A stretch of 37,774 nucleotides of DNA from positions 1-37,774 of IMG/VR virus record IMGVR_UViG_3300021197_001001; one strand, 5' to 3'. The notes under the pieces are model-generated. The model searched no databases and had not been told where the DNA came from. It saw nothing but the letters and a program-made list of their open reading frames with translations. A program made the translations under genes and the position numbers. Shown here piece after piece: positions 3,073 to 26,593 of this stretch. The DNA comes from a virus. Each line of letters opens with the position of its first letter. Positions within the stretch are counted from its first letter, which is position 1.

Positions 3073-4077
3073 TTATACGGTTACACTATCTTCTTCCAAC
3101 TTGTAGTCACTACCCGTCCCGATAATATCTTTCCAATACTCAGAATGTTCTGCCTTGTATTTTTCAATGGACTTTTTCTCTTCTGTAGAGTCTTTACCCG
3201 CCAAGAATCCATGTGCGGTTACAAGAATTCTACCATCCTCATATCCTAATCCATTAATGTGGTTTTTCATTACCGAAACTTTTGTTCGACTAGCGAACTT
3301 TACTTTTCTCTTATCTTTAACTGCAGTAATCTTAGTAGTACCTGCGTTTTTTTGATTACCAAACAAGAAAACCATTGAGGAGTTCAACCATATTGCCTCT
3401 CCTCCTTTAGCCTTAATCTTAGGTTGTCCGAAAGGATTGTCGGGAAGTTCAACCCACGGTTGATTAACAATAACCAAAGTATTTTCGTGTTTAGAGTCTG
3501 ACCTGCGTGAGCCTGAGATTCTTTGGTTGATACCCATTCCGATTTTATCGGCAAGTACTGCCGCGTTGTGTTGTTTACCTCCTTTACCATCATAGGTCAT
3601 CTTACAGGGTACAGAACCCACAGAATCCCAAAGGAACAAAAGGTCGTAATCTAAATCCCCTTTCTCTTGTGCATCCAACAAAGAGTTAATGTAGTCAGTA
3701 ATTTGTTCGATATATTCAAAATTATTGTTGAAGATAAAGAATCCGTCCCAATCCAATTCACCTGTTTCTTCGTCTACCACCTCTTCACATTCAAAACCCA
3801 TAAGTTTCGCGTGGTCAAATGACCATTTTTGTTCAGTTATAATAAATACAGGGAGAACATCTCTTTTTTGAGCGTCAACCGCAGCTTTAACCAATGCAGT
3901 TGTTTTACCTGTGTCTGAATGACCCAAGAACATATTAAGATGGCCCATAGCCGGTCCTGGTACTCCTACCGCGTCCAAAAAATCAGTACCTAAGTCATAG
4001 AATCTTTGTGGTTTGAATTTGGCTGAAGAAGAGAACTGCTTCTTTATGTCTTTAAATGATTTTTTCTTAATTGCCAT
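3073..4077 (-). CDS. uvsX: UvsX recombinase (RecA-like)
   Basis: A 334-residue strand-exchange recombinase that forms filaments on single-stranded DNA for recombination-dependent replication and repair. The N-terminal helix (KKKSFKDIKKQF) is followed by GVPGPAMGHLNMF and Walker A GHSDTGKT (52-59). Walker B is LLFLWDSVGSV, and LVIVNQPWV lies at the DNA-binding loop region. The C-terminus is acidic (KLEEDSVTV). Length is somewhat below T4 UvsX (about 390). The ATG directly abuts the TAA of the upstream methyltransferase gene (TTATAAATG), so no leader of its own remains and translation must be coupled. Codons 3-9 lie in an exact 21-base repeat shared with that gene. Confidence 0.93.
   Translation of the reverse strand: MAIKKKSFKDIKKQFSSSAKFKPQRFYDLGTDFLDAVGVPGPAMGHLNMFLGHSDTGKTTALVKAAVDAQKRDVLPVFIITEQKWSFDHAKLMGFECEEVVDEETGELDWDGFFIFNNNFEYIEQITDYINSLLDAQEKGDLDYDLLFLWDSVGSVPCKMTYDGKGGKQHNAAVLADKIGMGINQRISGSRRSDSKHENTLVIVNQPWVELPDNPFGQPKIKAKGGEAIWLNSSMVFLFGNQKNAGTTKITAVKDKRKVKFASRTKVSVMKNHINGLGYEDGRILVTAHGFLAGKDSTEEKKSIEKYKAEHSEYWKDIIGTGSDYKLEEDSVTV
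4049..4069. repeat. 21-base direct repeat, copy at uvsX start
   Basis: Exact 21-base copy of 4727-4747, lying at the same distance (6 bases) inside the start codon of uvsX as the other copy lies inside the methyltransferase gene. Both encode KKKSFK plus an aspartate or glutamate and isoleucine. The offset between copies is 678 bases, exactly the length of the methyltransferase ORF with its stop. Confidence 0.95.
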
Positions 4078-4755
4078 TTATAAAAGGTGTTTGAATCGAT
4101 ATTCTCGATTATTAATTTTAATTTCTTCTGAAGTTTGTTTTTTAATTATAATGCAGTTTTTCGCAAAAGTCATCATAGATATATTTAAACTATTTTTTTT
4201 GTTACTAAATTCAGAATTTACCTCATCTATTTGTCTTTTAAAAAAATCAAATATATTGTCATGACCAATGGTATATCCGTAGACTTTACTGTTTTGTGAC
4301 CAATAACTAGTTTCAATATCTTCAATTATGTAATAACCTCCGTTTTCTAACAAATTTTTAAATAGATAACAAAAAGTATCGAATTGATGTCTTGGGTGAT
4401 GTGAGCCGTCATCTATTACTAGTCTAGCGTTTTTCACGATTTTTGTGACTTTTTCTAAATCTTCAGATTTTGACTGGTCACCTTTAATAACTTTAGTATT
4501 CCCATCTTCATTAGAATCTTTTATATCCATTATAAAATGTGTAGAATATGGGAAGTATTCTTTAAATAGGTGAGACGACTTTCCTGTATCTTCATCTTTA
4601 TTTTTCGAACCTAAACCTATCTCTAAAAAATTAAAATGTTCTTTTCTTAAATTTTCTAAAAAAATAGGATATATTAAATCATATCTATGATAAGTAATCT
4701 TATCATTATTGTACGTTTCTCCAATTTCTTTAAATGATTTTTTCTTATTATCCAT
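4078..4755 (-). CDS. Class I SAM-dependent methyltransferase, sugar O-methyltransferase-like (MycE type)
   Basis: A 225-residue protein with a Rossmann methyltransferase core. Motif I is FLEIGLGS (43-50), the acidic residue after strand 2 is D77 in FIMDIKD, then LVIDDGSHH (112-120) and YYIIEDIETSYW (141-152). The DDGSH pattern followed by an ED..TSYW pattern is characteristic, from memory, of Mg-dependent sugar O-methyltransferases such as mycinamicin MycE, where the acidic residues hold the metal. The substrate here is unknown; glycans of virion or host, or a modified nucleobase, are possibilities. The gene sits between gp32-like SSB and uvsX, where T4 relatives have no methyltransferase. 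It is strikingly AT-rich (15-22% G+C in 60-base blocks at 4141, 4201 and 4621, against 45% in a uvsX block at 3481), suggesting recent acquisition. Confidence 0.8.
   Translation of the reverse strand: MDNKKKSFKEIGETYNNDKITYHRYDLIYPIFLENLRKEHFNFLEIGLGSKNKDEDTGKSSHLFKEYFPYSTHFIMDIKDSNEDGNTKVIKGDQSKSEDLEKVTKIVKNARLVIDDGSHHPRHQFDTFCYLFKNLLENGGYYIIEDIETSYWSQNSKVYGYTIGHDNIFDFFKRQIDEVNSEFSNKKNSLNISMMTFAKNCIIIKKQTSEEIKINNREYRFKHLL
4727..4747. repeat. 21-base direct repeat, copy at methyltransferase start
   Basis: Identical to 4049-4069. It covers codons 3-9 of the methyltransferase gene. With the other copy it brackets the gene precisely, consistent with insertion by recombination at the uvsX start, or with capture of the uvsX translation start. 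Confidence 0.95.
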
Positions 4756-4798
4756 TATATTTTGTTTCTTCTTTACGAAAATTTCATTATGAAAAATA

Positions 4799-4822
4799 CG
4801 GGAGAGTTGTTACACTCTCCCG
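4799..4822 (-). terminator. Rho-independent terminator after gp32-like SSB gene
   Basis: Perfect 9-base-pair stem CGGGAGAGT / ACTCTCCCG with a 6-base loop, followed on the minus strand by TATTTTTC. It lies 18 bases past the SSB stop and before the methyltransferase. It should raise SSB output over the downstream recombination genes, as the terminator after T4 gene 32 does. Confidence 0.85.
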
Positions 4823-4840
4823 TCTGTGTTTTTGTTTTTA

Positions 4841-5698
4841 TTAGAAAGGAAGGTCTTCATCAACCTGAGCCTTCGCTTGCGGGTCTTGAGACGTTTCAGT
4901 TGTTTCTGTCTTAGTTGTCGCACCTCCGATAGTTTCAGTTGTGTCATTACCATAAACAAACTTTTTAAGTTCAGAGTCCCATACAGGTGTCTCTCCTCGT
5001 GCAACTGCTTCAAGGTATTCAATAGGACGTTGTGCGTATACATCAGACCAAGTCATCTCGTCTTCCATCCATTCTTTCATCTGGTCCGCGTCTTCACTCA
5101 AAGGACAAGGGTCGTCATACATGATTGTTTGAACAATAGTGTACTCAATACCTGAATTAGTCTTAGACTTAGACAGTTCAACGATTAGGTCTCGACCCTC
5201 ATTACCGTCTGTAACGTCTCCTTTAGCCCTCCAAATCGGGATGATTTTGTCAAGAATACCTTCTTGCTTATAATTGTCTTTAAATCTCCAAAACTTAACC
5301 CCGTCTTCTTCGTTGTCTCGGTCAACAACTTTTACAATGTAAAATTTACGAGGACGGTATTGCATTGCCAACTTCTTATCTGTCTCTTTACCCGTCGACA
5401 TGAGTTCCTCATATACTTCAGTTAGTGGAGACCGTTCTCCGTCATTTTTTCCTGGGTCATAAAGTTTAACCCATCGTCCATCAACTTGTACCTCATGAAA
5501 CCATACTTCCTTAAAGGGTGATGAACCATCAGGTGTCGGGAGTATCCTAACCCGTGATTGTCCTGATTTTGTTCCTTTAGGAAGATACGTAGTAAAGTAT
5601 TTTTTAAGACGTTGTTCCTGTGTCATTCCGTCTCCGCCACCGCGAGACTCTGTGTTTTTTTCGTACTGTGCCAGTACTGCGTCGAGTGCATTTGCCAT
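4841..5698 (-). CDS. 32: Single-stranded DNA-binding protein, T4 gp32-like
   Basis: A 285-residue SSB. Length, position at the head of the uvsX operon and the acidic tail fit T4 gp32 (301 residues), which coats single-stranded DNA at forks and organises UvsX, helicase and polymerase. The basic N-terminal arm is followed by SRVRILPTPDGSSPFKEVWFHEV and aromatic strands (FWRFKDNYKQ, PIWRAKGD) suited to base stacking. The C-terminal region is low complexity (Thr, Glu, Gly) and ends DEDLPF. Two oddities: only one cysteine is present, so the zinc ribbon of T4 gp32 is missing, and the DEDLPF tip resembles the partner-binding tail of bacterial SSB (DDDIPF). The ATG follows AAAAGAAAAAAAATT. Confidence 0.85.
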   Translation of the reverse strand: MANALDAVLAQYEKNTESRGGGDGMTQEQRLKKYFTTYLPKGTKSGQSRVRILPTPDGSSPFKEVWFHEVQVDGRWVKLYDPGKNDGERSPLTEVYEELMSTGKETDKKLAMQYRPRKFYIVKVVDRDNEEDGVKFWRFKDNYKQEGILDKIIPIWRAKGDVTDGNEGRDLIVELSKSKTNSGIEYTIVQTIMYDDPCPLSEDADQMKEWMEDEMTWSDVYAQRPIEYLEAVARGETPVWDSELKKFVYGNDTTETIGGATTKTETTETSQDPQAKAQVDEDLPF

Positions 5699-6983: not shown

Positions 6984-9900
6984 TCAAATTTCCCCTCTCT
7001 GTACCACAGATTTAAATATATCTAACCATTGATTGTAAACTTTTTTGAATTTTTCATCGGTTTGTTTTTGATAATTCACTTCTTCTATTATGTCTGATGC
7101 GCTCCCATTTATCGTTGGGTTAGAGTAGACATTACTCATATAAATTATTGTTAGTGTTTTAGGTAGTTCGTCAATGACAGTCCCTTGAGTTAGTACATCG
7201 TATATTACATCTGATATAGGACCGATGGGGTTTAATGTTGCCCTCATAAAATCTAATGATTTATCTACGGTATCGAATGATGCAATAGTCGTTATTATTT
7301 CACCGTTCTGTACACAAACTTGCGAGTCGAAAAACTGTTCCCTATTCGTAACTAAAGAATCAGTCCTTACGTCCATTATGTTATTATTATAACAATTCTC
7401 TCTAACTGACTGATTTTGTGTGGCAATACCATATATTAATGTTTTTATCTTATCACTTGTAAAGTCCTTAGCATTAACATAATCAATAACTTCTTGTGCC
7501 TGTATTGGTGTTTTTACCATATCAGTAAAAGGTTTTTGGGGGTATTTGGTAATTTCTTGTCCTTTGTCTTCTGGCGCTTGAGTTATATTTTTCATCTTGG
7601 TTAACGCTAAGTTATTATTAGTCTCACCTGTTTTAGCGTTTGTTTCGATTTGTCTAACTTTTTCTTCCCATTGTTTTAGTAACTGTCTATTAACACTAGC
7701 AACTAATTTATCGGGTGGGGATAATGCAAATTTTGGTATCCTTACCCCATCAAAGTTGGTGGTAAATCCTCTATTTGTTATGTTATGAGTTACATTCATA
7801 ATTAAGTACGGCCCATAAAATAAAGGTACGTTTGTTAGGTTAAAGTACATCGTGGGTTGTATCATCGCATTACCCATAGATTGTACTTGACATGTGTAAC
7901 TTCTAGTCTTGTAAAAATTATAAAGAGACTGTGACTGTTGAGCAACCTGTTGACCCGAAGCTTGAGAACCCATGTCCGCCAATACTTGGAATGTCGGTCC
8001 AATATTTTTATGTTGATTCATGTCTACTGAGACCGAGTTGAATACCCCTTGATTTCTTTTTCCAAAGTCCACCTGAAATCCGACACACCTATTACTATCA
8101 GAATAGTTAGTCTTATTTGTTTGATTTTCCCTTAATGGACAATCTGATGGGTTAGTTATATCAAATGCGTCATCACCTTTTCTAAATGTAGTGTTTTGAC
8201 CGGTCCCTAAATTTGCTGAAGGTTCACCCACATACATACCAATCATTCTTGGTCTACTATCTCTGGTATCGACTTCCATAAAAGTACCAAATAAATCATT
8301 CGGTATGTCTTGTGGTAGTGGCTCTCCTTTTTTAGTCCTCTCGTTTCTACCGTAAAAGTTAGTATAAGCGGGTGTCGGAATAAATGTAAAATTATTTTTT
8401 TGATATATTAAACCTAATAAACCGTATACGGACATCTTATCATTACGACCTCTTATAAAACCTTCTAATTCGGAAATGTTCACAACTACTTTATCCCCTA
8501 CAGGTCTATTTGCTCTATCTAAAAATAAGAAATCTTCAAATATAGTTCTGTTTTTAAAATCTTGACCCGCTATCCATTTGTCATTAAGAGCCTGAAAAGT
8601 CTTCCACAATTCAAGTTTTGGTATATTTCCATCTATTTTAGATAAACCTAAGGATTCTTCAGTAATAGATACTGACGGTAAATCTCTATTTAATTTTATG
8701 AAAATTTGATTTAGTATGTCTTTTTGGAAGTTTTCTTGTTCCGCGACGTAATCGTTTATTTTTTTTATGAATTTGTTTTTGTTCATGGTCGGGTCTTCCG
8801 ACTTTTTAGACGCATAAATTTTTATAACAGACGATAATAACTCAACATTACTTTCAGTAAATTCAAATTCCATATCAACAAAAAAGTCGGTTAGGTATGA
8901 ACCATTATCTCCATACTTAAATCCTTCTTCGGAGAAGTCTCCTACATATTCATACATTGCCTTCCATGCACTCGGATAATCACCTTTACTTGACCCTAAA
9001 CTTACACCACCCCCTTCGGTCGGTAATGAACCCTGTACGTAGTTTCCAAAACTATAAGGGTCTTCAATTTTTTGTGACGATAATGTTGTTAATGAACCAT
9101 AAACTTTGTTGTTATATTTCGACGGGTTTCCAATCTTAAATATAATATCTTTGTTTATTAGTGCATCCAAACTATAATTAATAAATTGATTGCTCTGTGA
9201 GTTGTTTAAACTTTTTAATACACCATCAAAGTTTTGCTGTCCTGTTGGTTTGTCAACCATTAATAATGATTTTAAAACTTCATAAATATTTAAATCATAT
9301 TTATATAAATTAGGTCCATTATATAAACTTTCCTGGTTTTCATATACTGACCTCCATCTACCAAATTCAGTCGAAGGAACTTCACCGTTCTCATATTGTC
9401 CCTTCACCTCTTCACTATTTAAAAACTCTTCAAATGTCGTGTTTCCTCTATTAACTAAGAATTGTGTTTTATTTGGTGGTTGACAGAAATTTAAAAAGTG
9501 TTCTTCAAATAAATCTAACATATCTTTAGTAAAGACACCAAAGATATCATCAATGGATGAATACGTTAAAGAAGTGTTATTACCTAAATTAAATGCCTGT
9601 GTGTTTTTATATTCAGGGTTAATATGTTTTATATATTGACTAGGAGTTGGCTTATCAATCATTGCATTTGAAAAATATCCGTAGTTAGGTGCCGACCATA
9701 ATGTTCTCACACCTCCATTATAAATCGATGGATTTGTTGTTACATTTTGTTTGTGGTCGCCAATCCCGTTAAAACATTCGAACCTCGCTTGATTAAATTT
9801 AGCGTCACCGAAAGAAGGTATTATTAGTACTTTATTTTCTTTATTTTCTCTGAAATCATAATTACCCAACACATTAAAGTATTGTGACCAAGTATTCATC

Positions 9901-12900
9901 TGATAATCTGTCTCAGGGTTTTTAGAAAGTTTTATTTTAGTCTTTGGTGTTGTCCCTATTGTTAGTCCTTTTTCATTTTGTGCTGATTGTATTTCTGAAG
10001 ATGAATATGTACTAAACACATCTTTTTTAGTGAAGAAGTAATAAACATCATTCATCACTTTAGGGAAAAATCCGTTCTGTACTCTAGTTGATTCAAGGTT
10101 TATTGTGACATTTAAGTCCCCCCCTAAAAACGCGGGGTCTCCCTGATTCATCTGAACTATATCAGTAAATTGTTCATATTGTTTTATTGTTGTGTCGTTT
10201 CCTCCATAATCACTAAAACTATACGATTTAGACGTATTGTTTGAAATGGGGTCATAAGCATCCACATAATCAAAGTCTTTCCATATATCGTCTAAAATAT
10301 CTATTTCGTCGTTTTGGTATTTCTTGTACCTGTGCCATATTGAACCATACTTTAATATAAAGAGGTACGGTAATTTATGTATTGCGGAGTATTTGTTTAG
10401 TGTCGCAAAAATATAATTTAGGTCTGTAGTGATTGTATTTGAATTCGTTTTAAATTTTTCTCTTAATGTCGCTAAGGGTAAAGAATTTAAGTACAGATAT
10501 CCTAAAGCAGTGTATGGGTTTTCAATTTCATTTTTTTCATTCTCAACCCCTTTCATAATAGAGTTAATAAAATAAGGTGTGTTAAGTAATGACGTTGTTT
10601 GTTTTTTGGTTATATAATTCTCAGTTGTGTCGTATTTTGTCCCATAATCAACAAAAGATTCTGTTAATACTAAATCTTTTTGCATTCTAAGATTGTAGTA
10701 ATTTACAACCTGAGCATTTGTTAGGTAGTTAGTATTTCCGTTAGAGTTAAGTGATGAGTCGATATCACTTGTTTCTTGTGTCGGTGAATCACTATAGTTC
10801 AAAATCCACTCAAAATATGTGAATGGTTTTTTAGAGTGTGTTGTACCCAATTCTGATAATGAGGCAAAACCATCTTTAATCCCAAAAGAAGCTATCGTTT
10901 TCTTTGTTTCATTAATTGAAAACATTTTAGACGTATCATTACTTGATTCAACTGAATTTACTTGTGAACCCTGTGATAGATTACTTTGTACCCATGATAA
11001 GTTGTTGAACGGATAACCGTCACTAAATGACATTTCATCAGAGTAGTTAGCTTTAAGGTATTTTTCTAATTTATCTATATTTTCAACATTTGACTCAACT
11101 GTTGTACTATCTCCTTCTAAGTAACTTAAATCATATATTCCATAATCATTTTCTAAATATGATTTTATATATGGTGTCGTAAACTCTCCCCTTGAAAATA
11201 AATTCCAGTTCGTCCCTTGTCCGTTGTTGGAAATGGACTTCATGTATCTCAACATGTTTTCATAACTAAACGCAAAGTTTTTTAATAACCCAATTAACTC
11301 CGTTGAGTTAACAACTGATTCTTTAAGGTTATTATACTCGAAGTCACTAACAACACTGTAAACCTCATCCCTATAACCACTTGATTTATAAAGGTTAGTG
11401 TAATTACTACTTAATAAAGTTCTTTCAAATATTTCATATATAAATGGAACTATGTTTAAATCTGTATACGGTTGGTTTTGGTTTGGGAACTCTATGGCGT
11501 TTATACCCATAAATGGATTATCCTTTAACGTATTAGTTAAATCGAAGTCTATATTTCCCGACTCTTTCTGAGTAGCCCCTTTCATGTATTCTTCAACAAA
11601 CCTAACCTCAGGCCATACCGTAGAGGAGAACGCCCTTAATTGTGATGCAACAGTATAGTCACCAGGATATGTATCTTTTAGTTCTTCATTCCCATCTTCA
11701 TCTACTGAGTTAACAAAATACTGTGGCCAAGGATATACAATGGCGGTTTCTTGTTGTGGGTTATTAGTTGTCGGCGCGTTACCACTATTTGTTTCAACAC
11801 CTTGTGATTTTTCAGGTGATAAAATCGCGTTTCTTCTTATCGGGTTTTTTCTCTGCTCCCAAGACTCGTCATGTACTTGGTCCATTAACCTTAAGAATGC
11901 ATCCGCACTTGCAGATATTACTGCAATAATATTTTTTATTGTGGGGTAGAATCCGAGACCTACATTGGGGCTTTTTATTTTCTCTGCCAACGCCTCAGAC
12001 ATTTTTTCTTCCACCATACTCCTCTTAGTCTCAAAGTCGTCGTTTAATCTTTGTAACTTACCCAAAAAACTAATTCTATTAAATTTCGTTTTACCGTATA
12101 TATCACCAAAAACAAAAAATGTTTTCTTGAGTTGGTTGTCTTCCATTTCTAAAGTTTCAGCATTAATCTGATATCCATTAATCAAAAGTTCAGTCTCTAT
12201 TTCAACTTTTAATGTCTCAACTTCTTGTTCGGTACCAGCCCTGCCATTTCTAATTTCAAATGTAGATTCATAATCAATGTCATCTGGATTAGTTATTTGT
12301 GTTAGAAAATTATTTATTGATATTGTTGAGGTGAGTGTTGTTTCTAATTTTTCTCCGTGTATTTTCGCTTGTCCGTCACTTCCAAATGTTGCGTTGTCGT
12401 TTAATTTGGTGTTATACTCCTTAATTATAGTGTCAAGTGACGAGATAGAATCGCTTATATTTTGTAACGCAGTCTCTTTTTGATTTGTTAGTTCTTTTTT
12501 TAACGGGTATACCACTCCTGAGTTTGGGATGTTTAATATAAACGGTAGGTTTTTATCGATGTTTTTTGTTTCCCAATTATCCGTTATTTGTCCGTATATT
12601 TTACTCTGGTATTCTTTTAACGTTTTTCGATATAAATCAATGTCGTTTAAGATGGCAAAATCTTCTTTTCCGTATGCTTCCATAACATACCTTTCAAAGT
12701 TTTCCAACTTCATTAACATCTGACTTAATGTCAATTCAGGGAAGTTTTCGTCTATTAATCCTTTAGCTTTATATGAACTATAAACATTCTTTATCATATC
12801 ATATCCTCTTGTGGATTTGATTCTTCTAACTTCTTGTGTACCACCTTCATTATTGGTTGAGGTTTTATCGGGCCCTAATGTTGCCGTCCGTTCGTACATA

Positions 12901-13616
12901 TGAGGTAACGCGAATAAGGAGTCCACCGATATATCGGAAAGAAGTGCGTAAGTACGAGAAATAAAGTTAGTGGTAATCTTATAGTTGCCTGAAGACGGGT
13001 CGAATCTTGCGTTAAAATCTTTTAACATTAATTCATATCTTAACGCCTTACCATAATAACCTTTAACTGTTAAAGTAAATAATGGATATGGTAAATGAAA
13101 AAACGCACTATATGGTGAGTTTTCTCCTTGTTCAAATAACACCCTCCCCTGCACATCCTCCATTTCAATGGTAACCAATGCCGCGTATGATGTATTTATT
13201 TTAATCGATATATTAGTTATACCTAAAAGTTGTGAGTCAACATCTCCATTACGTGTTCTACCGAGTGTTAAGTTATCCGTCCATGAGGTATCTAAGTAAG
13301 AGTCTTGTGTTTGACCCTCTCCCGTATCTTGGGATTGTGGCTTCATAAAATTGATTACGGTTTCTTTACTATCGTCGATGGCACCTACTCTAATATTTTC
13401 TACCGCAGTTTCGAAATTATCTCCGACAACTAATTTACTTCGTGGTATTACTTTAGCCTCCAAGTTGGCGTACATGACAAGTTCTTCGTGATTTACTAAC
13501 CTTTCAGAAACTTTACCTCCTTTATCAACAACTTTATTAGGGTCTACCACGATTACGTTGTCATAGTCGGTTTCTACATATACATTTTGATTATTAAAAA
13601 ATTCGTTACCTGCCAT
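6984..13616 (-). CDS. Very large baseplate-type structural protein (2210 residues)
   Basis: By far the longest gene here. Near the N-terminus (residues 110-240) lies a beta-rich segment (SWTDNLTLGRTRNG, LLGITNISIKINTSY, FTLTVKGYYGKALRYEL) that I associate with large uncharacterised structural proteins of marine T4-like phages. At about 1850-1940 the pattern GVFNSVSVDMNQHKN then GNAMIQPTMYFNLTNVPLFYGPYLIMNVTHNI resembles the baseplate-hub fold (gp27/gpD type) in which a tube-like domain ends 'GPYLI..V.H.I'. The middle is rich in Asn, Ser and Tyr without clear domains. It is preceded by a gp53-like wedge gene with an 11-base overlap, so it is translated as part of the baseplate operon. A hub, or a hub fused to wedge-like scaffolding, is my inference. 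Confidence 0.75.
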   Translation of the reverse strand: MAGNEFFNNQNVYVETDYDNVIVVDPNKVVDKGGKVSERLVNHEELVMYANLEAKVIPRSKLVVGDNFETAVENIRVGAIDDSKETVINFMKPQSQDTGEGQTQDSYLDTSWTDNLTLGRTRNGDVDSQLLGITNISIKINTSYAALVTIEMEDVQGRVLFEQGENSPYSAFFHLPYPLFTLTVKGYYGKALRYELMLKDFNARFDPSSGNYKITTNFISRTYALLSDISVDSLFALPHMYERTATLGPDKTSTNNEGGTQEVRRIKSTRGYDMIKNVYSSYKAKGLIDENFPELTLSQMLMKLENFERYVMEAYGKEDFAILNDIDLYRKTLKEYQSKIYGQITDNWETKNIDKNLPFILNIPNSGVVYPLKKELTNQKETALQNISDSISSLDTIIKEYNTKLNDNATFGSDGQAKIHGEKLETTLTSTISINNFLTQITNPDDIDYESTFEIRNGRAGTEQEVETLKVEIETELLINGYQINAETLEMEDNQLKKTFFVFGDIYGKTKFNRISFLGKLQRLNDDFETKRSMVEEKMSEALAEKIKSPNVGLGFYPTIKNIIAVISASADAFLRLMDQVHDESWEQRKNPIRRNAILSPEKSQGVETNSGNAPTTNNPQQETAIVYPWPQYFVNSVDEDGNEELKDTYPGDYTVASQLRAFSSTVWPEVRFVEEYMKGATQKESGNIDFDLTNTLKDNPFMGINAIEFPNQNQPYTDLNIVPFIYEIFERTLLSSNYTNLYKSSGYRDEVYSVVSDFEYNNLKESVVNSTELIGLLKNFAFSYENMLRYMKSISNNGQGTNWNLFSRGEFTTPYIKSYLENDYGIYDLSYLEGDSTTVESNVENIDKLEKYLKANYSDEMSFSDGYPFNNLSWVQSNLSQGSQVNSVESSNDTSKMFSINETKKTIASFGIKDGFASLSELGTTHSKKPFTYFEWILNYSDSPTQETSDIDSSLNSNGNTNYLTNAQVVNYYNLRMQKDLVLTESFVDYGTKYDTTENYITKKQTTSLLNTPYFINSIMKGVENEKNEIENPYTALGYLYLNSLPLATLREKFKTNSNTITTDLNYIFATLNKYSAIHKLPYLFILKYGSIWHRYKKYQNDEIDILDDIWKDFDYVDAYDPISNNTSKSYSFSDYGGNDTTIKQYEQFTDIVQMNQGDPAFLGGDLNVTINLESTRVQNGFFPKVMNDVYYFFTKKDVFSTYSSSEIQSAQNEKGLTIGTTPKTKIKLSKNPETDYQMNTWSQYFNVLGNYDFRENKENKVLIIPSFGDAKFNQARFECFNGIGDHKQNVTTNPSIYNGGVRTLWSAPNYGYFSNAMIDKPTPSQYIKHINPEYKNTQAFNLGNNTSLTYSSIDDIFGVFTKDMLDLFEEHFLNFCQPPNKTQFLVNRGNTTFEEFLNSEEVKGQYENGEVPSTEFGRWRSVYENQESLYNGPNLYKYDLNIYEVLKSLLMVDKPTGQQNFDGVLKSLNNSQSNQFINYSLDALINKDIIFKIGNPSKYNNKVYGSLTTLSSQKIEDPYSFGNYVQGSLPTEGGGVSLGSSKGDYPSAWKAMYEYVGDFSEEGFKYGDNGSYLTDFFVDMEFEFTESNVELLSSVIKIYASKKSEDPTMNKNKFIKKINDYVAEQENFQKDILNQIFIKLNRDLPSVSITEESLGLSKIDGNIPKLELWKTFQALNDKWIAGQDFKNRTIFEDFLFLDRANRPVGDKVVVNISELEGFIRGRNDKMSVYGLLGLIYQKNNFTFIPTPAYTNFYGRNERTKKGEPLPQDIPNDLFGTFMEVDTRDSRPRMIGMYVGEPSANLGTGQNTTFRKGDDAFDITNPSDCPLRENQTNKTNYSDSNRCVGFQVDFGKRNQGVFNSVSVDMNQHKNIGPTFQVLADMGSQASGQQVAQQSQSLYNFYKTRSYTCQVQSMGNAMIQPTMYFNLTNVPLFYGPYLIMNVTHNITNRGFTTNFDGVRIPKFALSPPDKLVASVNRQLLKQWEEKVRQIETNAKTGETNNNLALTKMKNITQAPEDKGQEITKYPQKPFTDMVKTPIQAQEVIDYVNAKDFTSDKIKTLIYGIATQNQSVRENCYNNNIMDVRTDSLVTNREQFFDSQVCVQNGEIITTIASFDTVDKSLDFMRATLNPIGPISDVIYDVLTQGTVIDELPKTLTIIYMSNVYSNPTINGSASDIIEEVNYQKQTDEKFKKVYNQWLDIFKSVVQRGEI

Positions 13617-13923
13617 AATAGAAGAAGTGTGTGTCTAACGCCTTTTTATAATCTTGTAAAGAATTCACCAAAGGAAAGGGTATAACCAAAACAGCGCCAT
13701 CATCAATATTATTTTCTAAACCTCCGAACTTAGGGTTTGCCGCTAAAATTAACCAACCAAAATATGGAGTTTCATAAAATTCCTGACTTACCTTATCTAA
13801 TCGGCTTCGACTAACTTTATAGATAAACTTTTTGTCTGTCGGTTTTGATGGTATGTTTACAAACGGTACTACAGTTTGTTCCCCATTCAAAAGAAAGTCT
13901 TGGTATCTATTATAATATCTCAT
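13606..13923 (-). CDS. 53: Baseplate wedge protein, T4 gp53-like
   Basis: A 105-residue protein with the shape of gp53-type wedge proteins. It has an N-terminal arm (MRYYNRYQDFLLNGEQ), then a LysM-like segment: YKVSRSRLDKVSQEFYETPYFGWLILAANP, followed by the closing strand GAVLVIPFPL. In T4, gp53 clamps wedge to hub in the baseplate. The LysM-like fold here is likely structural rather than wall-binding. The ATG overlaps the stop of the 1575-residue gene as ATGA, and the gene overlaps the next one by 11 bases, so translation is coupled across the whole baseplate block. Confidence 0.7.
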   Translation of the reverse strand: MRYYNRYQDFLLNGEQTVVPFVNIPSKPTDKKFIYKVSRSRLDKVSQEFYETPYFGWLILAANPKFGGLENNIDDGAVLVIPFPLVNSLQDYKKALDTHFFYYGR

Positions 13924-16900
13924 AGGTTAAAACTGTATTTTTCGTTATATTCATTTAGTGGCCCTGCGTTTTGTCCACTTGTGAATGTTCTTCTAAAGTA
14001 GTTTACTTTACTATTTTCCGCCTGTTCTTGTGCTTTTTGTATGTATGTGAAATTCCTAACTTTATCAGGATTAAATGGTTCATATAATGTGAATTTTTTT
14101 ACATTATTATTATTTGTAAAATCTTTAAATTCGTCAATACCATTTTGTTGTAACTCTTTATAAACATCCAGTAATCCAGGTTGTGACGGTAATATCGGAC
14201 TATTCATACCTTCACTCCCTAATATCGATGGAAGATTATTCGGTATCTCTGGAGTACCATATACCACTCTATTTACATATTGTACCCAATCTGATTTTTG
14301 AATTAACTCTTCACCTAAAATCCTATCTATAAGATATTCGGGGTCTTGTATCATAATACCATAAGCTATTGTACAAAACCTTGTTTGTGGTTCTGAATTA
14401 AACCCATCAGATAAAAATCCCTCATATAGATTATCTTTTTGTGGTAATAACCCATTACTCTCAAAAATTTCATCGTAAAAGGCTTGTAAATCAAATCCAA
14501 CTGTTTGTATATCGGCCAATAACTCTTCTTGTGTATTTGCTTGTGTTGATGAAACATCTACATCTGTGGTTGCTGACAATTCGAAAATAAAGGCTCTTCC
14601 TTTTTTATCATTATACCCATCAGTTTCTGTCGTAATTAAACTTAGTTTATCATTAACCCTAACAAACTCTGTTTGAGTTTCTAATAAATCAAACATCGTA
14701 CTATTAAATGTGGTTTGGAAAAATCCGATATACTCCTTTATAAACGACTTTAAATTTTTTCTAAACTTTTTAATGTCACTATTTTTAAAATTCTGTAAAG
14801 ATATCTGACTTAAAAATGGGTTAGTATTATTGTCTACATCTTCATTTAATTTAACCTCTAACTCTGTGGTTCTATTTGGTATCTCAGATGGTTTACCAAA
14901 AATGTTAGTGAACAGTTCATCATTGCCGTCTAAGTAACCTGTCGTATACCCATCTTGGTAATTTCTTGTTTGAGTAAAGTAATACATCCCGATTTTTGAT
15001 TGGTCTTTCGAAATTGTTTCTAATGTATTCAAAATGTTTTGTGTGTAAGACTGTGCTTTAGAAACATAGTCATTTACTATAGATTTGTAATTAATATCCC
15101 CTTGTAGAAATTCTCCAACAGTTGTTGATGTGATTTCTCCTATTGTATCTCCCGCTTCTTCACTCCTTTCAACCTGACCGTTTTCAGTCAATGAAAAGTC
15201 ATTTGCGTCTTCTATTGCGTCTAAAACTTCTCTATTTAATACTGACCTATCTTCAGTGACTATTGAGCGGTCGTCATAAACCTCTGTGTTACCATAATAA
15301 TTAAAAGACAATGCGTTTTGTAATCTAGATACCGGCTCTTTTATTCCTTGTCCACCTATAAAGTAAAAGCTCATATTAATATCAGCAATCATAGGTTGTA
15401 CACCGATTCCTTCAGGATTCAAGTCAAATGTTAGTGGTTCGTAACTAATACTCATTTGTTGAATTGCAATTTTTGAATGATAGAAATCACCAATTCTTAA
15501 TACACATATCGGCGGGGCACCAAACGCAGTGTTTTTAACGTCCCCCTCTCTTGGTTTACCGTCCTCACCTATTACAGGGATTGTATCACCAGGTCTCAAA
15601 CATTGTTGTAAGAAAGTAAGTCTACTATTTAAACCTTCAGGTGTCATAGAATGAAATGCCGGTTGAAAGTATTTAATCTTCTCTTTAATCCCTTCGTATA
15701 CTCTTGGTGTTTCCTCCCTCATCATATTAAAGTAGTCACACTCAGTTAATAATTTTTTAACTATTATCTTAGCAACTTCGTTTCTCGGCTGGGTTAGTTT
15801 TGATTCTTTCTGTCTTATTACCTCCGTTTTTCCTGTTACGGTTTCTGTTATTATAGTTTCCTCCGGCGGTACTTCGGTTACCCTTTGTTCAGGTGGTGAA
15901 GGTACTTCTTCAATTGTTTTTATAACCACAGCTCTACACGCCATAGCATTTACCGAATATGTTGTAGAGTTACCTACTAACTCTTCTGTACAGTTAAATG
16001 AACCATATTCACCACCTCCTGGTGTTGCCGTTGATTGTTCCCCTTGTGGGTCTTCGGTAATTGAAAATCTATCTTCATACTTACTTAAGTCAAAAAACGA
16101 AAATAGATATTTTTTAACTGCGTCTATTCTTCTTTTCGATAATGACTCATTATAGTCCGCACTATTGGGGGCAGAAGCGGAGCCCACTAATTTCATGTTA
16201 ATAGTCCCTCCCTTATCTAACGCTTTTTTAATTTTTGAAACTAGTTCCTGTGTTTTCTTTTCTATTAAATTAGTACCCTCTCCGTTTATTAAAAAACTTT
16301 CAAAAAATTGTAGTACTTGAATTTTTTCATCAGAGTCAGCAGTATTATAGTAAGTTTCTTTTTTTCCTATATATGTAGAAAGTGTTGTCGCGTATTCTTC
16401 AGTTGTTGTTGTGGAGGATGCGGTTCGTGGACCCGGAACATCATTATCGAAGTAGAACTCATACTCATAATCTTGTACTTGTACTTCAGGAGTATATTCT
16501 TCAATGACGGGGTCTTTTTCGGTTAAGTTAATTCTCTCAATGTCTTTTGAAAAATTTTCATATGTTTTTACGTCTGTAGTTTCTGTAACTATCTCGTATA
16601 TGTCTTTTAATGTAAATTGAGGGAACCTTTGAGCTAATTCATATATGTCATATTTTCTACATCCAGCAAAAAATGAATCAACAATGTCATTAACTCTTTG
16701 TGAGTTTTGGCCCGCCAACTCTTTGTCGACAATTGCATTCAATATTGAAGGGTGGTCAACTACTATTTTCCAAGATAAACTACCTTGTCTTGTTGTATTG
16801 TTATACGTATAAACCGGTTCAGGTCTTCCTAAAAACTCGTTAGATGTCCAATTGGATGAGTTGGTTTCAGATACTTTCATATCGTATGGTGGGAACCACA

Positions 16901-18647
16901 TAATTCTACCTCCGCTAGGTCCTCTTTCACAAACGGGTAAATCGGAATAAGTGAATCCAGGCTTACTTGATGTTCTCCAAGCCAAGTTTTCAATCGAAAA
17001 CATGTACTTTTTTACTTTACCAGCTTGTATATTAGTTGAGTCGTCATCCCTAAAAGGTGTAATATTAAGGTTATAGGTATTGTCTAAGACAGAATATTGA
17101 AATCTTCTGTTTTGATTAGTCATACCGTCTTCCTTTTGTAGTTCACTATTTGAGAAGTAAGGAACGTCTTTAGTGAATACTCTACAGTATTCCATTCCTT
17201 TTATTTCTCCTGTGCTTTGGTCTTCATACTTATAAACCCTTGAGCCTTTGGTCATCTCACGGGTTCCATCACTGAAAACTTTTGACACTTGATTAATCGC
17301 GTTACCAACATGTTGTAATCTAGCATCTCCCTGTAGACCTTCAGCAGCATCAATTAACTTCTGAGTATCATCTAATATCGAACCTTTCTTAAAGTCATAT
17401 TGTGTCGATACCCCCGATTCAAATGACGATTGTACATTCGATTCAAAGTTACTATCAACGGAACCAAGACCACCCCCTTGTGACGCGAATCGTCCTGCAG
17501 ATTTTACTCCGTCTAAACTAGTCCATGTAAAACCTCCTTGTAGTCTAGGTGCGTCATAACTACTGTTTGTTGCAGTTCCTATTCTTAAGAATTTAGTTCC
17601 GTTAAGTCCAAATTTAAACGAGAAGTTACCTTCATATAATTTAGCTAATTCAGAGTATCCTCTAACAGGAGTTCTCACTCTATTACCAAATTGGTCTATC
17701 GGCAATTCGTTTGGTGGTGCAACAATATCTTTAGGGTCTTGTGTTTTACTCCCCACGTAATAATTACCTGAAGGTGCTTTTAGTCCGAAAGCTCTATTGT
17801 TATCTGTATAATCGGGAGCAAAAACATTTAGTGATAAACTCTTAAACAACCTTTTAGTTTGTCCTCTACCTGAATTAGAAATAAATAATTCCGAAGACCT
17901 TTTATTTGCGTCGGGTAGCAATGTTCCTCTATCACCATACTCTCCATCACCTCTTGAAGCCTGATTAATACTTGATTGAGCTTCGACCTTAGTAAAGTAA
18001 CTTCCAGGAATCCAAGAATATGGTGAATAAACACCCGATATTCTACTAATAAAATCTAACCCTTTACCTATTATATTATCGGGTACCGATATTTTCCAAT
18101 CACTCTCAATCGCTTGTTCATTACCGGTAGCAATCGCTAAAGCGTCGAAGGGGTCTGATAACGCATCTATTACGTTAATCCTACCAAGTGTCTGTTGGTA
18201 TGTCTCTTCAGCAACTCGATATTCAAATTCTGTTTTAAGTTGGTTTCCCGCAATTTGTGCTAATGTAGAATCTTGACTTAAACTTCCGTTTGTTCCTGTA
18301 GGATTAAATGAGGTTAATAGGTTGAAAGCGTTATACGTAGACGACACAAAAGTGTAGTAAGTTTCTCTCTTTTCTATTTTATTCTTTATATCTCGTATAT
18401 CTATCAAATCTTTATACCCACCCTCAGGGCCATACTGATTAGATATAAACGCTCTTTTTTTTGCTTCTTCGTTTACTTGTAGTTCAGTAACTCTTGTACT
18501 GTCTACCACACCAAGGTCCTTTATTGAGAATTCAACACTGCCAGGACTTTCATTTCCTTTGTAACCTTCTTTGTATGGTTCAAGGTTCCTAACTAACAGT
18601 CTTTTTCTAAAGTTCTCTGTAGCATCAAATGTTAATTCACTAGGCAT
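13920..18647 (-). CDS. Large tail/baseplate protein with an internal OmpA-like domain
   Basis: A 1575-residue structural protein. At about residues 726-912 is an OmpA C-terminal-like domain: a start YEFYFDNDV, a helix ending LVSKIKKALDKGG, the strand NMKLVGSASAP, then NESLSKRRIDAVKKYL matching the family's 'N..LS..RA..V..yL' signature, and a closing RAVVIKTIE. That domain binds peptidoglycan in outer-membrane proteins. The usual TD of the 'GhTDs' turn is replaced (GSASAPNS). Around 1050-1120 is a conserved-looking beta region (ISYEPLTFDLNPEGIGVQP, RLQNALSFNYYGNTEVYD). The N-terminal 700 residues are Gly/Ser/Asn-rich. It lies between tape measure and wedge genes, so it belongs to the baseplate or tail tip. 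It starts with ATG 16 bases after a CTATTTAT motif. Confidence 0.75.
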   Translation of the reverse strand: MPSELTFDATENFRKRLLVRNLEPYKEGYKGNESPGSVEFSIKDLGVVDSTRVTELQVNEEAKKRAFISNQYGPEGGYKDLIDIRDIKNKIEKRETYYTFVSSTYNAFNLLTSFNPTGTNGSLSQDSTLAQIAGNQLKTEFEYRVAEETYQQTLGRINVIDALSDPFDALAIATGNEQAIESDWKISVPDNIIGKGLDFISRISGVYSPYSWIPGSYFTKVEAQSSINQASRGDGEYGDRGTLLPDANKRSSELFISNSGRGQTKRLFKSLSLNVFAPDYTDNNRAFGLKAPSGNYYVGSKTQDPKDIVAPPNELPIDQFGNRVRTPVRGYSELAKLYEGNFSFKFGLNGTKFLRIGTATNSSYDAPRLQGGFTWTSLDGVKSAGRFASQGGGLGSVDSNFESNVQSSFESGVSTQYDFKKGSILDDTQKLIDAAEGLQGDARLQHVGNAINQVSKVFSDGTREMTKGSRVYKYEDQSTGEIKGMEYCRVFTKDVPYFSNSELQKEDGMTNQNRRFQYSVLDNTYNLNITPFRDDDSTNIQAGKVKKYMFSIENLAWRTSSKPGFTYSDLPVCERGPSGGRIMWFPPYDMKVSETNSSNWTSNEFLGRPEPVYTYNNTTRQGSLSWKIVVDHPSILNAIVDKELAGQNSQRVNDIVDSFFAGCRKYDIYELAQRFPQFTLKDIYEIVTETTDVKTYENFSKDIERINLTEKDPVIEEYTPEVQVQDYEYEFYFDNDVPGPRTASSTTTTEEYATTLSTYIGKKETYYNTADSDEKIQVLQFFESFLINGEGTNLIEKKTQELVSKIKKALDKGGTINMKLVGSASAPNSADYNESLSKRRIDAVKKYLFSFFDLSKYEDRFSITEDPQGEQSTATPGGGEYGSFNCTEELVGNSTTYSVNAMACRAVVIKTIEEVPSPPEQRVTEVPPEETIITETVTGKTEVIRQKESKLTQPRNEVAKIIVKKLLTECDYFNMMREETPRVYEGIKEKIKYFQPAFHSMTPEGLNSRLTFLQQCLRPGDTIPVIGEDGKPREGDVKNTAFGAPPICVLRIGDFYHSKIAIQQMSISYEPLTFDLNPEGIGVQPMIADINMSFYFIGGQGIKEPVSRLQNALSFNYYGNTEVYDDRSIVTEDRSVLNREVLDAIEDANDFSLTENGQVERSEEAGDTIGEITSTTVGEFLQGDINYKSIVNDYVSKAQSYTQNILNTLETISKDQSKIGMYYFTQTRNYQDGYTTGYLDGNDELFTNIFGKPSEIPNRTTELEVKLNEDVDNNTNPFLSQISLQNFKNSDIKKFRKNLKSFIKEYIGFFQTTFNSTMFDLLETQTEFVRVNDKLSLITTETDGYNDKKGRAFIFELSATTDVDVSSTQANTQEELLADIQTVGFDLQAFYDEIFESNGLLPQKDNLYEGFLSDGFNSEPQTRFCTIAYGIMIQDPEYLIDRILGEELIQKSDWVQYVNRVVYGTPEIPNNLPSILGSEGMNSPILPSQPGLLDVYKELQQNGIDEFKDFTNNNNVKKFTLYEPFNPDKVRNFTYIQKAQEQAENSKVNYFRRTFTSGQNAGPLNEYNEKYSFNL

Positions 18648-23416: not shown

Positions 23417-26400
23417 TCAGATATCTTCAAATGATGCACCTGTTGGTGTGATTAAGAATTCGATATCAATGAATTCTAACGCTCTCGTCGGTTTCAGATA
23501 AATTTTACCTACCAAGGTATTGTTATCTAAATCCTCAGGAGTGTTCTGAACTACGACTCTAAAGTCGATTAAACCTCTATCTCTTCTGATAGAATCTAAG
23601 ATTGGGTTTACTGAATCCAAGAACTCTTGTCTTACTTGGTCGTCATTTTGTTCGAACAATAGTCTTACCGCGACCGCTGAAATTAACTTACGAGCTTGTA
23701 ATAACAATCTTCTAACGTTAATTCTATCGAGAGCTGACTCTTTAACTTGAGTAGTTTTGTTACCCCAAATTACAGTTCCCACATCTGAGAAAGTCGCAAT
23801 CGGGTTAATTCTACCCTTGTACAGGATATCCCTATCGTCTTGAGTTAACTTCTTACGTGCTTTAATACCGTTAACCAAACCTCTTGTATAACCCGCTGAC
23901 GCGAACCAAGGGAATGCGATATTATCAGTTAACGCTAAGTTTCTAACAACCTCTGCGGTTGGGGGTAGGTATACCTGTGTATTATTAACAGTATCTCTTG
24001 TTAAAATCCATGGGTAGTAAGTTGCCGTATAGTTAGAATCGATACCCGTATCTTCTAAATTTTCAGTAGATTCTTGTGGGTAAATAAAGTTACCTGTAAA
24101 GTCTGAAGTTGTATTAACAAACATATTATAATCAGGAGTTGTACAAATATAAACTGAATCTGCTCTATCAGTTTCAATCATATCAATAGCCTCCTCGACT
24201 AAGTTTGAGTTGTTAACATAATCCACACCTGGTGTCGTAAATACATTTATGTTTACCGCTTCAGGGTTTACAAATGTAGACTGACCCCATAAGTAAGCGT
24301 AGTAGTCAGTATTACCCCAATCTTGTTTGTCAGGACCAGTTATTGTCTTAAATGCTCCCCATCCTGTTGCGGTTGGGAATCTTATGGACGTCGCAGCTCC
24401 TTTGAGATAACCACTATTACCTAATATGTATCTATCTCCGTTAGTACGATATTCTCTATATATATCCCATCCATCAAAACCACCTGTGGGTATTAATGTA
24501 AATTTACGTGAATTTAATCTATAGTATGGTGATGTGTCACCTGGTTCACTTCTAAACGACGCATCTCCAACTTCGAACGCAGTTTCACCTGAAGTAGTCC
24601 ATTGACTTGAGATTGTTATTACAGTAGCCCCTGAATCCATGTGGAATCCTTTAGTTAATACCGCCCATGGTGATGATTCAGTTGCAGTTGCTAAGTCAGT
24701 AGGGTTTTGTTTACCTTTGTAAGACGCAAAATCAACATCGATACCAACAGTATTTGACACACCCAAATAAACTCTTCTTGGGTTATCACCTGAACTTCTC
24801 GTTACATTATCACCTCCCTGTGTTCCGAATGGTGGGTTAGCAATAACTTCACCTGGTGTGTTATACTTTGTCTTATATATTAGATGAGGTGACTTATAAT
24901 TTTTATACTGTCTCGTTTGATAACCTCTAAATCCACATGGTAAAGAGTCGATGGGTGCTTCTTCATTAATCTCTAACATTATGTAACGAGATTTTAATTC
25001 GAAGTCTCCATTTGCGGTACCTACTTTTTTAGCCACAAAACTATTAAGATTTGGGTCCATTGTACAGTTTGTAAATTTCTCTAAGACTACAGGACTTGAG
25101 TCAGTGTCATAAAAATCTCTTACGACTATATCGAAGGTTAAATTATTGAACGAAATATTCGCGATGGATACTTTTATTTCTCTGTTTGCACCACTACCGT
25201 CTGAAATTGAGATGAACTTGAATAGGTTAAATACCTCATTACCTCTTAATTCAGAAACTACAAATGGAGTGAACGGTGTTTGGTATCTATCTAAATACCA
25301 ACCGATACCTGTGTTATCTGTGTCTGTTCTAGCACCATTAAATGGTAATAAATCGGTATTTAATCCTCTGATTTTACCCTGTCTATAACCTGTATTTAAT
25401 AAGTTATAATAAAGTTCTCCCACCATTAAAGGTACATCGTTTCTATCTTTACCAAAGTTAGATTGTCCCAATACCTTACTTAAGAAATTAGGGTCACTTA
25501 ATGTGAAAGAAGTGTCGAAAGTAAACGTTTCTGAATCACTAGTTATACCTGATAACTGGAAGGTCGCAAATGGATTGTTTGTAATTCCTGAATACGCCGC
25601 TGTACTATTAATAGTAACATCAGTTAAACCTGATACTTCATATACTGGTCCATCGTCATTACTATACGTTGAAATACCTCTTGAACGTAATGTTGAAATC
25701 ACCATGTTATGGTAATCAGTAATTACAGTGCCTGAGTAAGTTGTGTCATAAACAACCGCCGTACCCGTATAGTTATTACCTGACGTATTTGTAAGACCTG
25801 TAACGATTAGACCGAAACCTACACCTGAGTAGTCTTGGTCTGTAGAATCGTATGGGAATAAAGAGTAATACCAAGAATCATTTTCGGATGCTTCAAAATC
25901 TGCGGTGTCGATAGTTAATCCGTCAACGCTAAGTACATTAGTACTACCTGTCCAATTTGACGTTCCTGTAATTGTGTCGTAGGTTCCTCCACTTACCGTA
26001 CCGAACATATAAGCAGTTTTACCTGAGTTTGATGGGTCTACTATATCTTTATAAAGACTTGTTTTAAAATCGTCTTCAATTGTACTCACTCCTCCACTAA
26101 ATGTAGTGTAAGGTAATGAGAAGTAATTTTCAATATATGATGGTAAATCACTATAATTAGTGATTGTTGTCGACGCACTAGTTCCTGATACACCACTGAA
26201 AGTTACCGTAAACGGACCTGCATTACCTGTACCGACTACGGTGTCTTTTTTAAGATTACCTACGGTTGATATTGACCAAGCCGGTCCCGCGTCATAACCT
26301 GACAAACCAAGTATACGAGTTACAAAAAGTTGATTTGATTGTTGTAAATATGCCTTAGCAATGTATGCTGCTTCATATTTTGGAATCTGAGTGTTTATAA

Positions 26401-26593
26401 ATTTGGTTGGGCTTGTACCGCCAAAATATGCAGTGAACTCATCGAAGTTTGTTATAAAAATGGGCTCAAACGCAGGACCTGACTGAGTTTCACCAACAAT
26501 ACCTAATGTAGTTACACCAACACTTTGAGCTACAAAACTTAAATCTCTTTCTGATGTATATACACCTGGAGATACGAATACTTTGTCTGCCAT
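23417..26593 (-). CDS. 18: Contractile tail sheath protein, T4 gp18-like
   Basis: A 1058-residue sheath subunit. The conserved N-terminal block is VSPGVYTSERDLS, GVTTLGIVGETQSGPAFEP and FGG..PTKFIN. The conserved C-terminal block (about 860-1058) has NNTQVYLPPTAEVVRNLALTDN, the GVNGIK-like LVNGIKARKKLTQDDRDILYKGRINP, AVRLLFEQNDD and KPTRALEFIDIEFLI. Between them, at about 125-560, lies a Thr/Ser/Gly-rich beta insertion (TSGNNYTGTAVVYD and similar) that makes the protein some 400 residues longer than T4 gp18 (659). Surface-exposed insertions are known in sheath proteins and could decorate the tail. Starts with ATG after AAAACTAATTAAT, no Shine-Dalgarno, with ATATTTAT 34 bases upstream and a terminator downstream. 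Confidence 0.93.
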   Translation of the reverse strand: MADKVFVSPGVYTSERDLSFVAQSVGVTTLGIVGETQSGPAFEPIFITNFDEFTAYFGGTSPTKFINTQIPKYEAAYIAKAYLQQSNQLFVTRILGLSGYDAGPAWSISTVGNLKKDTVVGTGNAGPFTVTFSGVSGTSASTTITNYSDLPSYIENYFSLPYTTFSGGVSTIEDDFKTSLYKDIVDPSNSGKTAYMFGTVSGGTYDTITGTSNWTGSTNVLSVDGLTIDTADFEASENDSWYYSLFPYDSTDQDYSGVGFGLIVTGLTNTSGNNYTGTAVVYDTTYSGTVITDYHNMVISTLRSRGISTYSNDDGPVYEVSGLTDVTINSTAAYSGITNNPFATFQLSGITSDSETFTFDTSFTLSDPNFLSKVLGQSNFGKDRNDVPLMVGELYYNLLNTGYRQGKIRGLNTDLLPFNGARTDTDNTGIGWYLDRYQTPFTPFVVSELRGNEVFNLFKFISISDGSGANREIKVSIANISFNNLTFDIVVRDFYDTDSSPVVLEKFTNCTMDPNLNSFVAKKVGTANGDFELKSRYIMLEINEEAPIDSLPCGFRGYQTRQYKNYKSPHLIYKTKYNTPGEVIANPPFGTQGGDNVTRSSGDNPRRVYLGVSNTVGIDVDFASYKGKQNPTDLATATESSPWAVLTKGFHMDSGATVITISSQWTTSGETAFEVGDASFRSEPGDTSPYYRLNSRKFTLIPTGGFDGWDIYREYRTNGDRYILGNSGYLKGAATSIRFPTATGWGAFKTITGPDKQDWGNTDYYAYLWGQSTFVNPEAVNINVFTTPGVDYVNNSNLVEEAIDMIETDRADSVYICTTPDYNMFVNTTSDFTGNFIYPQESTENLEDTGIDSNYTATYYPWILTRDTVNNTQVYLPPTAEVVRNLALTDNIAFPWFASAGYTRGLVNGIKARKKLTQDDRDILYKGRINPIATFSDVGTVIWGNKTTQVKESALDRINVRRLLLQARKLISAVAVRLLFEQNDDQVRQEFLDSVNPILDSIRRDRGLIDFRVVVQNTPEDLDNNTLVGKIYLKPTRALEFIDIEFLITPTGASFEDI

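Follow-up and report, generated by a model that had tools for sequence, protein, structure and literature searches.

Among the free-standing homing endonuclease genes of phage T4, segG lies at the gene 32/59 junction and segA at uvsX/beta-gt; illegitimate repair of double-strand breaks in this phage leaves microhomology at its junctions (PMC2988022). PeSLs, in the account cited in PMC4503421, are intergenic cassettes bearing stem-loops, and a role in gene shuffling in T4-like phages has been proposed for them. Here we describe an event of this known kind in the DNA of a T4-like phage (the whole stretch analysed, 37,774 nt, is referred to below as the window), in which a methyltransferase gene lies between a gp32-like gene and the essential recombination gene uvsX. 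The insertion is real and well resolved, the start of the new gene is chimeric and the site is a recurrent one. We propose, with a probability of roughly 0.78, that microhomology fusion captured this AT-rich foreign gene at the point where the uvsX leader met its ATG, and that the uvsX start was duplicated in the process.

All features of the locus are on the minus strand. The upstream neighbour is the gene for the gp32-like single-strand DNA binding protein (4841-5698; Pfam gp32, E=1.3e-13), which is followed on its 3' side, and upstream of the inserted gene, by a terminator-like hairpin (4798-4823) with a 10-bp stem and a T tail. The RNA fold of the region spanning this hairpin (4720-4845) has z=-4.7, and a stem-loop is also present at the same place in relatives with an empty site. 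The 225-aa methyltransferase gene (4078-4755) comes next, followed by the uvsX recombinase gene (3073-4077; PHROG UvsX-like, E=1.7e-15), whose protein shares 83-98% amino acid identity with 80 viral contigs. The first-pass annotation had described the methyltransferase stop as touching the uvsX ATG and the gene as far more AT-rich than uvsX, and both descriptions are accurate: its TAA (4080-4078) directly abuts the ATG at 4077, leaving uvsX without a leader of its own, and its GC content of 25.5% (GC3 18.6%), against 38.8% for uvsX and 42.7% for gp32, is the lowest of the 26 window ORFs checked. Matches to sigma-70 promoters were dismissed as uninformative in an AT-rich phage that probably infects Bacteroidota. 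Elsewhere in the window, we note a tail sheath protein of 1058 aa (23417-26593) in which the sheath profile covers mainly residues 736-1055, leaving a long N-terminal part unassigned, and two very large ORFs with no PHROG match, of 2210 aa (6984-13616) and 1575 aa (13920-18647).

The junction was compared with those of the 80 uvsX relatives (83-98% amino acid identity) and of loci from two pattern scans, giving 155 non-identical gp32-uvsX junctions with gp32 in view, the window itself excluded. In 110 of these the gap between the two genes is short (12-115 nt), and these are the uncut, empty sites that the first-pass annotation had proposed looking for. The methyltransferase is absent from the site in all relatives inspected (155 distinct junctions), and its insertion there is known from one genome, that of the window. 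The nearest relatives, with 86-89% nucleotide identity in uvsX, carry directly before their uvsX ATG a leader with 73-83% identity to the 85 nt that precede the methyltransferase gene of the window (4756-4840), with the exception of one near relative (L001/L082) whose leader is shorter and does not match. The matching leaders finish in ...AAACAAAATACA-ATGGCAATTAAGAAAAAATCATTTAAAGA, and that of the window in ...AAACAAAATATA-ATGGATAATAAGAAAAAATCATTTAAAGA. Since the homologous leader stands directly before uvsX in the nearest relatives, the methyltransferase was inserted precisely where this leader used to meet the uvsX ATG. The earlier proposal of an insertion at the uvsX start is thus backed by the many close relatives that lack the gene, keep an empty site and have a homologous leader there, and the outcomes named in advance as refuting it, a gene carried by every relative or a missing empty site, were not observed. 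We also observe an inverted repeat, TTACGAAA/TTTCGTAA, that is preserved in the leaders of L083-L099 some 25 nt ahead of the uvsX start codon; it is partly eroded in the window (4756-4795, minus strand), where the methyltransferase now comes next.

The two genes begin alike. The sequence TCTTTAAATGATTTTTTCTTA is present, letter for letter, at both 4049-4069 and 4727-4747, as the first-pass annotation had reported, with an offset of 678 nt that equals the length of the methyltransferase ORF; read on the minus strand, both copies are TAAGAAAAAATCATTTAAAGA, nucleotides 9-29 of uvsX and of the methyltransferase gene alike. The left copy (4727-4747) forms part of the chimeric methyltransferase start, from K4 into the opening bases of codon 10, and the right copy (4049-4069) belongs to the native uvsX start and is identical in 17 relatives with an empty site. 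The ungapped match around the repeat reaches about 33 nt at 88% identity. This is the sole exact direct repeat of at least 16 nt in the whole window, and only one of 200 windows simulated under a Markov-1 model held any repeat of at least 21 nt. Beside the 21 identical nucleotides, codons 2-3 are unlike between the copies (GATAAT in the methyltransferase gene and GCAATT in uvsX, three changes in six nucleotides). Dating the duplication from the 21/21 identity was considered and dropped, because close relatives hardly vary in their uvsX start and because the search itself partly selected for it.

The position of the left joint can be approached through the starts of methyltransferase homologues, which profile searches recovered both as free-standing genes (L105-L107, 51-56% identity) and as domain copies (39-48%). 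In the alignment, the closest free-standing relatives begin ML-SFKQIGEKY, M-TLEQLGDKY and MN-TFKQLGTKY, and other free-standing starts read M-ESFYNIG, MAI-RSFREIG and MN-SFEEI; the family start is a methionine with zero to three residues, followed by [ST]F or a near match to it. The window methyltransferase begins M-DNKKK-SFKEIGETY and has five residues before SF, as does uvsX (M-AIKKK-SFKDIKK), a spacing that differs from all free-standing relatives. From these comparisons SFK is native to the newcomer, because its closest free-standing relatives begin M(x)[ST]F-K, and MDNKKK is an extension with uvsX spacing. Of the 161 distinct uvsX starts just 11 have KKKSFK, and these include the starts of the window's nearest relatives. 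Further, TCATTTAAA, which occurs in the uvsX start, also makes up codons 3-5 of L105, a gene only 56% identical, whose DNA reads ATGTTATCATTTAAACAA; the motif is thus native to both partners. The simplest reading is that uvsX supplied the leader, the ATG and the lysine codons (KKK) and that the donor supplied everything else, with the fusion falling inside TCATTTAAA. The earlier suggestion that the uvsX start was copied onto the newcomer therefore stands for the leader, ATG and KKK, which match uvsX, and gives way for SFK: this segment is native to the methyltransferase family, and the left joint is therefore better described as a microhomology fusion than as wholesale copying of KKKSFK. In the predicted model residues 1-7 are unstructured and the first helix runs from F8, and the added N-terminal residues are predicted to fall outside the methyltransferase fold.

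The resemblance between the two starts could in principle be a matter of chance or convergence, with AT-rich, lysine-rich starts arising in an A-rich phage and the leader meeting the gene's native start right at the ATG. This accords with the unlike codons 2-3, with an SFK that is native to the methyltransferase family and with the frequency of lysine-rich, A-rich starts, as seen in a gene family beginning MSINKK that scores 25/33 against the uvsX start. However, in a start-anchored comparison of 1,251 distinct non-uvsX ORFs with the uvsX start, the methyltransferase reaches 28/33 identities and a run of 21 nt, where the runners-up among the 1,250 others reach 25/33 identities and a run of 10 nt. 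Similarly, the longest match between the contents of 45 other wide gp32-uvsX gaps and their own uvsX start is 12 nt, and the ATG spacing in the window equals that of uvsX, unlike all free-standing relatives. We accordingly disfavour a chance resemblance and regard it as improbable.

Capture by microhomology fusion would begin with a recombination-dependent replication fork, or a double-strand break under repair, that switches to donor DNA at a microhomology. At the left joint, uvsX would contribute its leader, its start codon and its first codons (lysine), fused to the newcomer at TCATTTAAA(G), which codes for S-F-K both in uvsX and in the methyltransferase family. A return to uvsX just upstream of the exit point would then be expected to produce a duplication, setting the methyltransferase stop directly against the intact uvsX ATG at the right joint, where no clear microhomology is seen, and leaving about 30 nt of the uvsX start in two copies, one at each end of the insert. 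The uvsX expression signals would now serve the methyltransferase, with the gp32 hairpin (4798-4823) and the leader remaining upstream, and uvsX would be left to translational coupling at TAA|ATG, which is probably how it is translated, or to promoters within the insert. Codons 2-3 (GATAAT against GCAATT) count against this reading, in that copying of the whole start would require later substitutions or a donor already beginning MDN. As the searches gave no close donor of the methyltransferase, the best homologue being 56% identical, the breakpoints are not fixed to the base.

We further note an unrelated gene between gp32 and uvsX in 44 of the 155 other distinct junctions; a wide gap in L075 was not counted among these inserts, being due to a truncated gp32 match. 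The inserts include a family of 73-75-aa ORFs (30 ORFs), a 98-108-aa family (11), two glycosyltransferase-2 types and one outer-membrane beta-barrel protein. In L030, L034, L066, L070, L204 and others, the inserted ORFs end inside the uvsX start as ..YGN* or ..NGN*; this ..GN* stop, seen in the 75-aa family, in glycosyltransferase 2 and in the ~100-aa family, is encoded by TATGGCAATTAA or AATGGCAATTAA, uvsX codons 1-4. As several inserts stop inside the uvsX start, inserts repeatedly finish at the uvsX ATG.

A recurrent insertion point of this kind, together with ample flanking homology (79-89% nucleotide identity), would also suit an import from a phage that already carried the methyltransferase there, through ordinary homologous exchange within gp32 and uvsX, the chimera having been made earlier, in the donor. 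We consider this possible as a minority view: no second genome with the methyltransferase at gp32-uvsX was found in viral contigs or at the relatives' junctions, and such an import merely shifts the fusion event to another genome. The short direct repeat flanking the insert likewise recalls transposition, and a mobile element with target-site duplication, by homing or transposition, might have placed the gene. Yet the insert encodes a methyltransferase only, with no nuclease or transposase gene and no GIY-YIG or HNH endonuclease in it; the repeat lies within coding sequence, is imperfect at codons 2-3 and is fused in frame; and none of the other gp32-uvsX inserts carries a copy of the uvsX start. 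A mobile element is in our judgement the least credible source of the gene.

The first-pass annotation had also proposed that a single crossover between the repeats would excise the gene cleanly, giving phase-like loss in the population. An active recombination switch with on/off variation is permitted by the geometry, which would allow an in-frame deletion of exactly 678 nt, and recombination genes lie on both flanks. A crossover in the 21-mer would, however, give a uvsX starting MDNKKKSFKDIKK, with codons GATAAT (DN) in place of GCAATT (AI). All 161 distinct uvsX starts are MAI (some of them were retrieved by a pattern requiring ATGGC, which makes this a less than fully independent test), and a search for the exact 20-mer, blind to codons 2-3, gave 17 uvsX contigs, every one of which has GCAATT. 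No uvsX with the MDN scar was found among the 161 starts or in a degenerate scan of viral contigs, a set from which records very close to the window may be absent. T4-type homologous recombination needs roughly 50 bp, and a 21-bp repeat is short for it. Clean excision is not supported by these observations, and we regard a switch as very improbable, although excision may still occur at a low rate.

The product of the captured gene is assigned by PHROG as a methyltransferase, and its closest solved relatives, by sequence and by fold, are the macrolide sugar O-methyltransferases MycE (PDB 3ssm; phmmer E=5e-16) and SpnK (8ia9), which are also the top fold matches of its AF2 model (pLDDT 88; Foldseek E=7e-16). 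The window protein has in common with these enzymes the catalytic-domain fold and the IDDGSH...GG-YIIED motif (DDGSH / GG-Y-IED), and residues D115, D116, S118, H119, G139, G140, E145 and D146 are invariant in the family alignment. It differs in being phage-borne and in lacking the ~150-180 N-terminal residues of MycE and SpnK. A DNA methyltransferase function was rejected in favour of a MycE/SpnK-like O-methyltransferase on these sequence and fold matches. Homologues occur within glycan gene clusters or as glycosyltransferase fusions: that in L105 adjoins genes for an FkbM-type methyltransferase and a hexapeptide transferase, and that in L113 is fused to glycosyltransferases; the window protein is likely a glycan O-methyltransferase. 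Searching viral contigs with the methyltransferase by itself gave no relatives, nor did a scan of genome contigs, and in the 24 nearest loci checked no homologue from the profile scan adjoined uvsX.

It is tempting to see gp32-uvsX, in this Bacteroidota-type T4-like group, as a standing capture site for surface-glycan genes, at which newcomers fuse to the uvsX start, gain a leader and a start codon, and are shielded from easy loss because uvsX would then depend on them for translation; we offer this as a speculation and think it unlikely. The locus itself is an unusually readable fossil of phage gene acquisition. Because one can see the unoccupied junction, the way in which the newcomer's family natively begins and the beginning of the recipient gene, it is possible to narrow the joint to a short microhomology and to recognise that a leader and a start codon were gained together, in one step. 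The comparison likewise identifies gp32-uvsX as a site of recurrent insertion in a large group of uncultured phages.

Compared with the known systems, the locus resembles PeSLs, as far as the cited account describes them, in the gain of a gene beside a stem-loop and leader at an intergenic junction, and differs in that its joint lies in a coding start instead of a stem-loop and in that no early promoter is shown at the window junction. Its likeness to segG and segA is that of foreign single genes placed in spacers beside gene 32 and uvsX; those genes are often promoter-less and exploit existing signals, as the window insert does. Unlike them, the window insert is a methyltransferase without nuclease or self-mobility, and its arrival left the start of uvsX duplicated.
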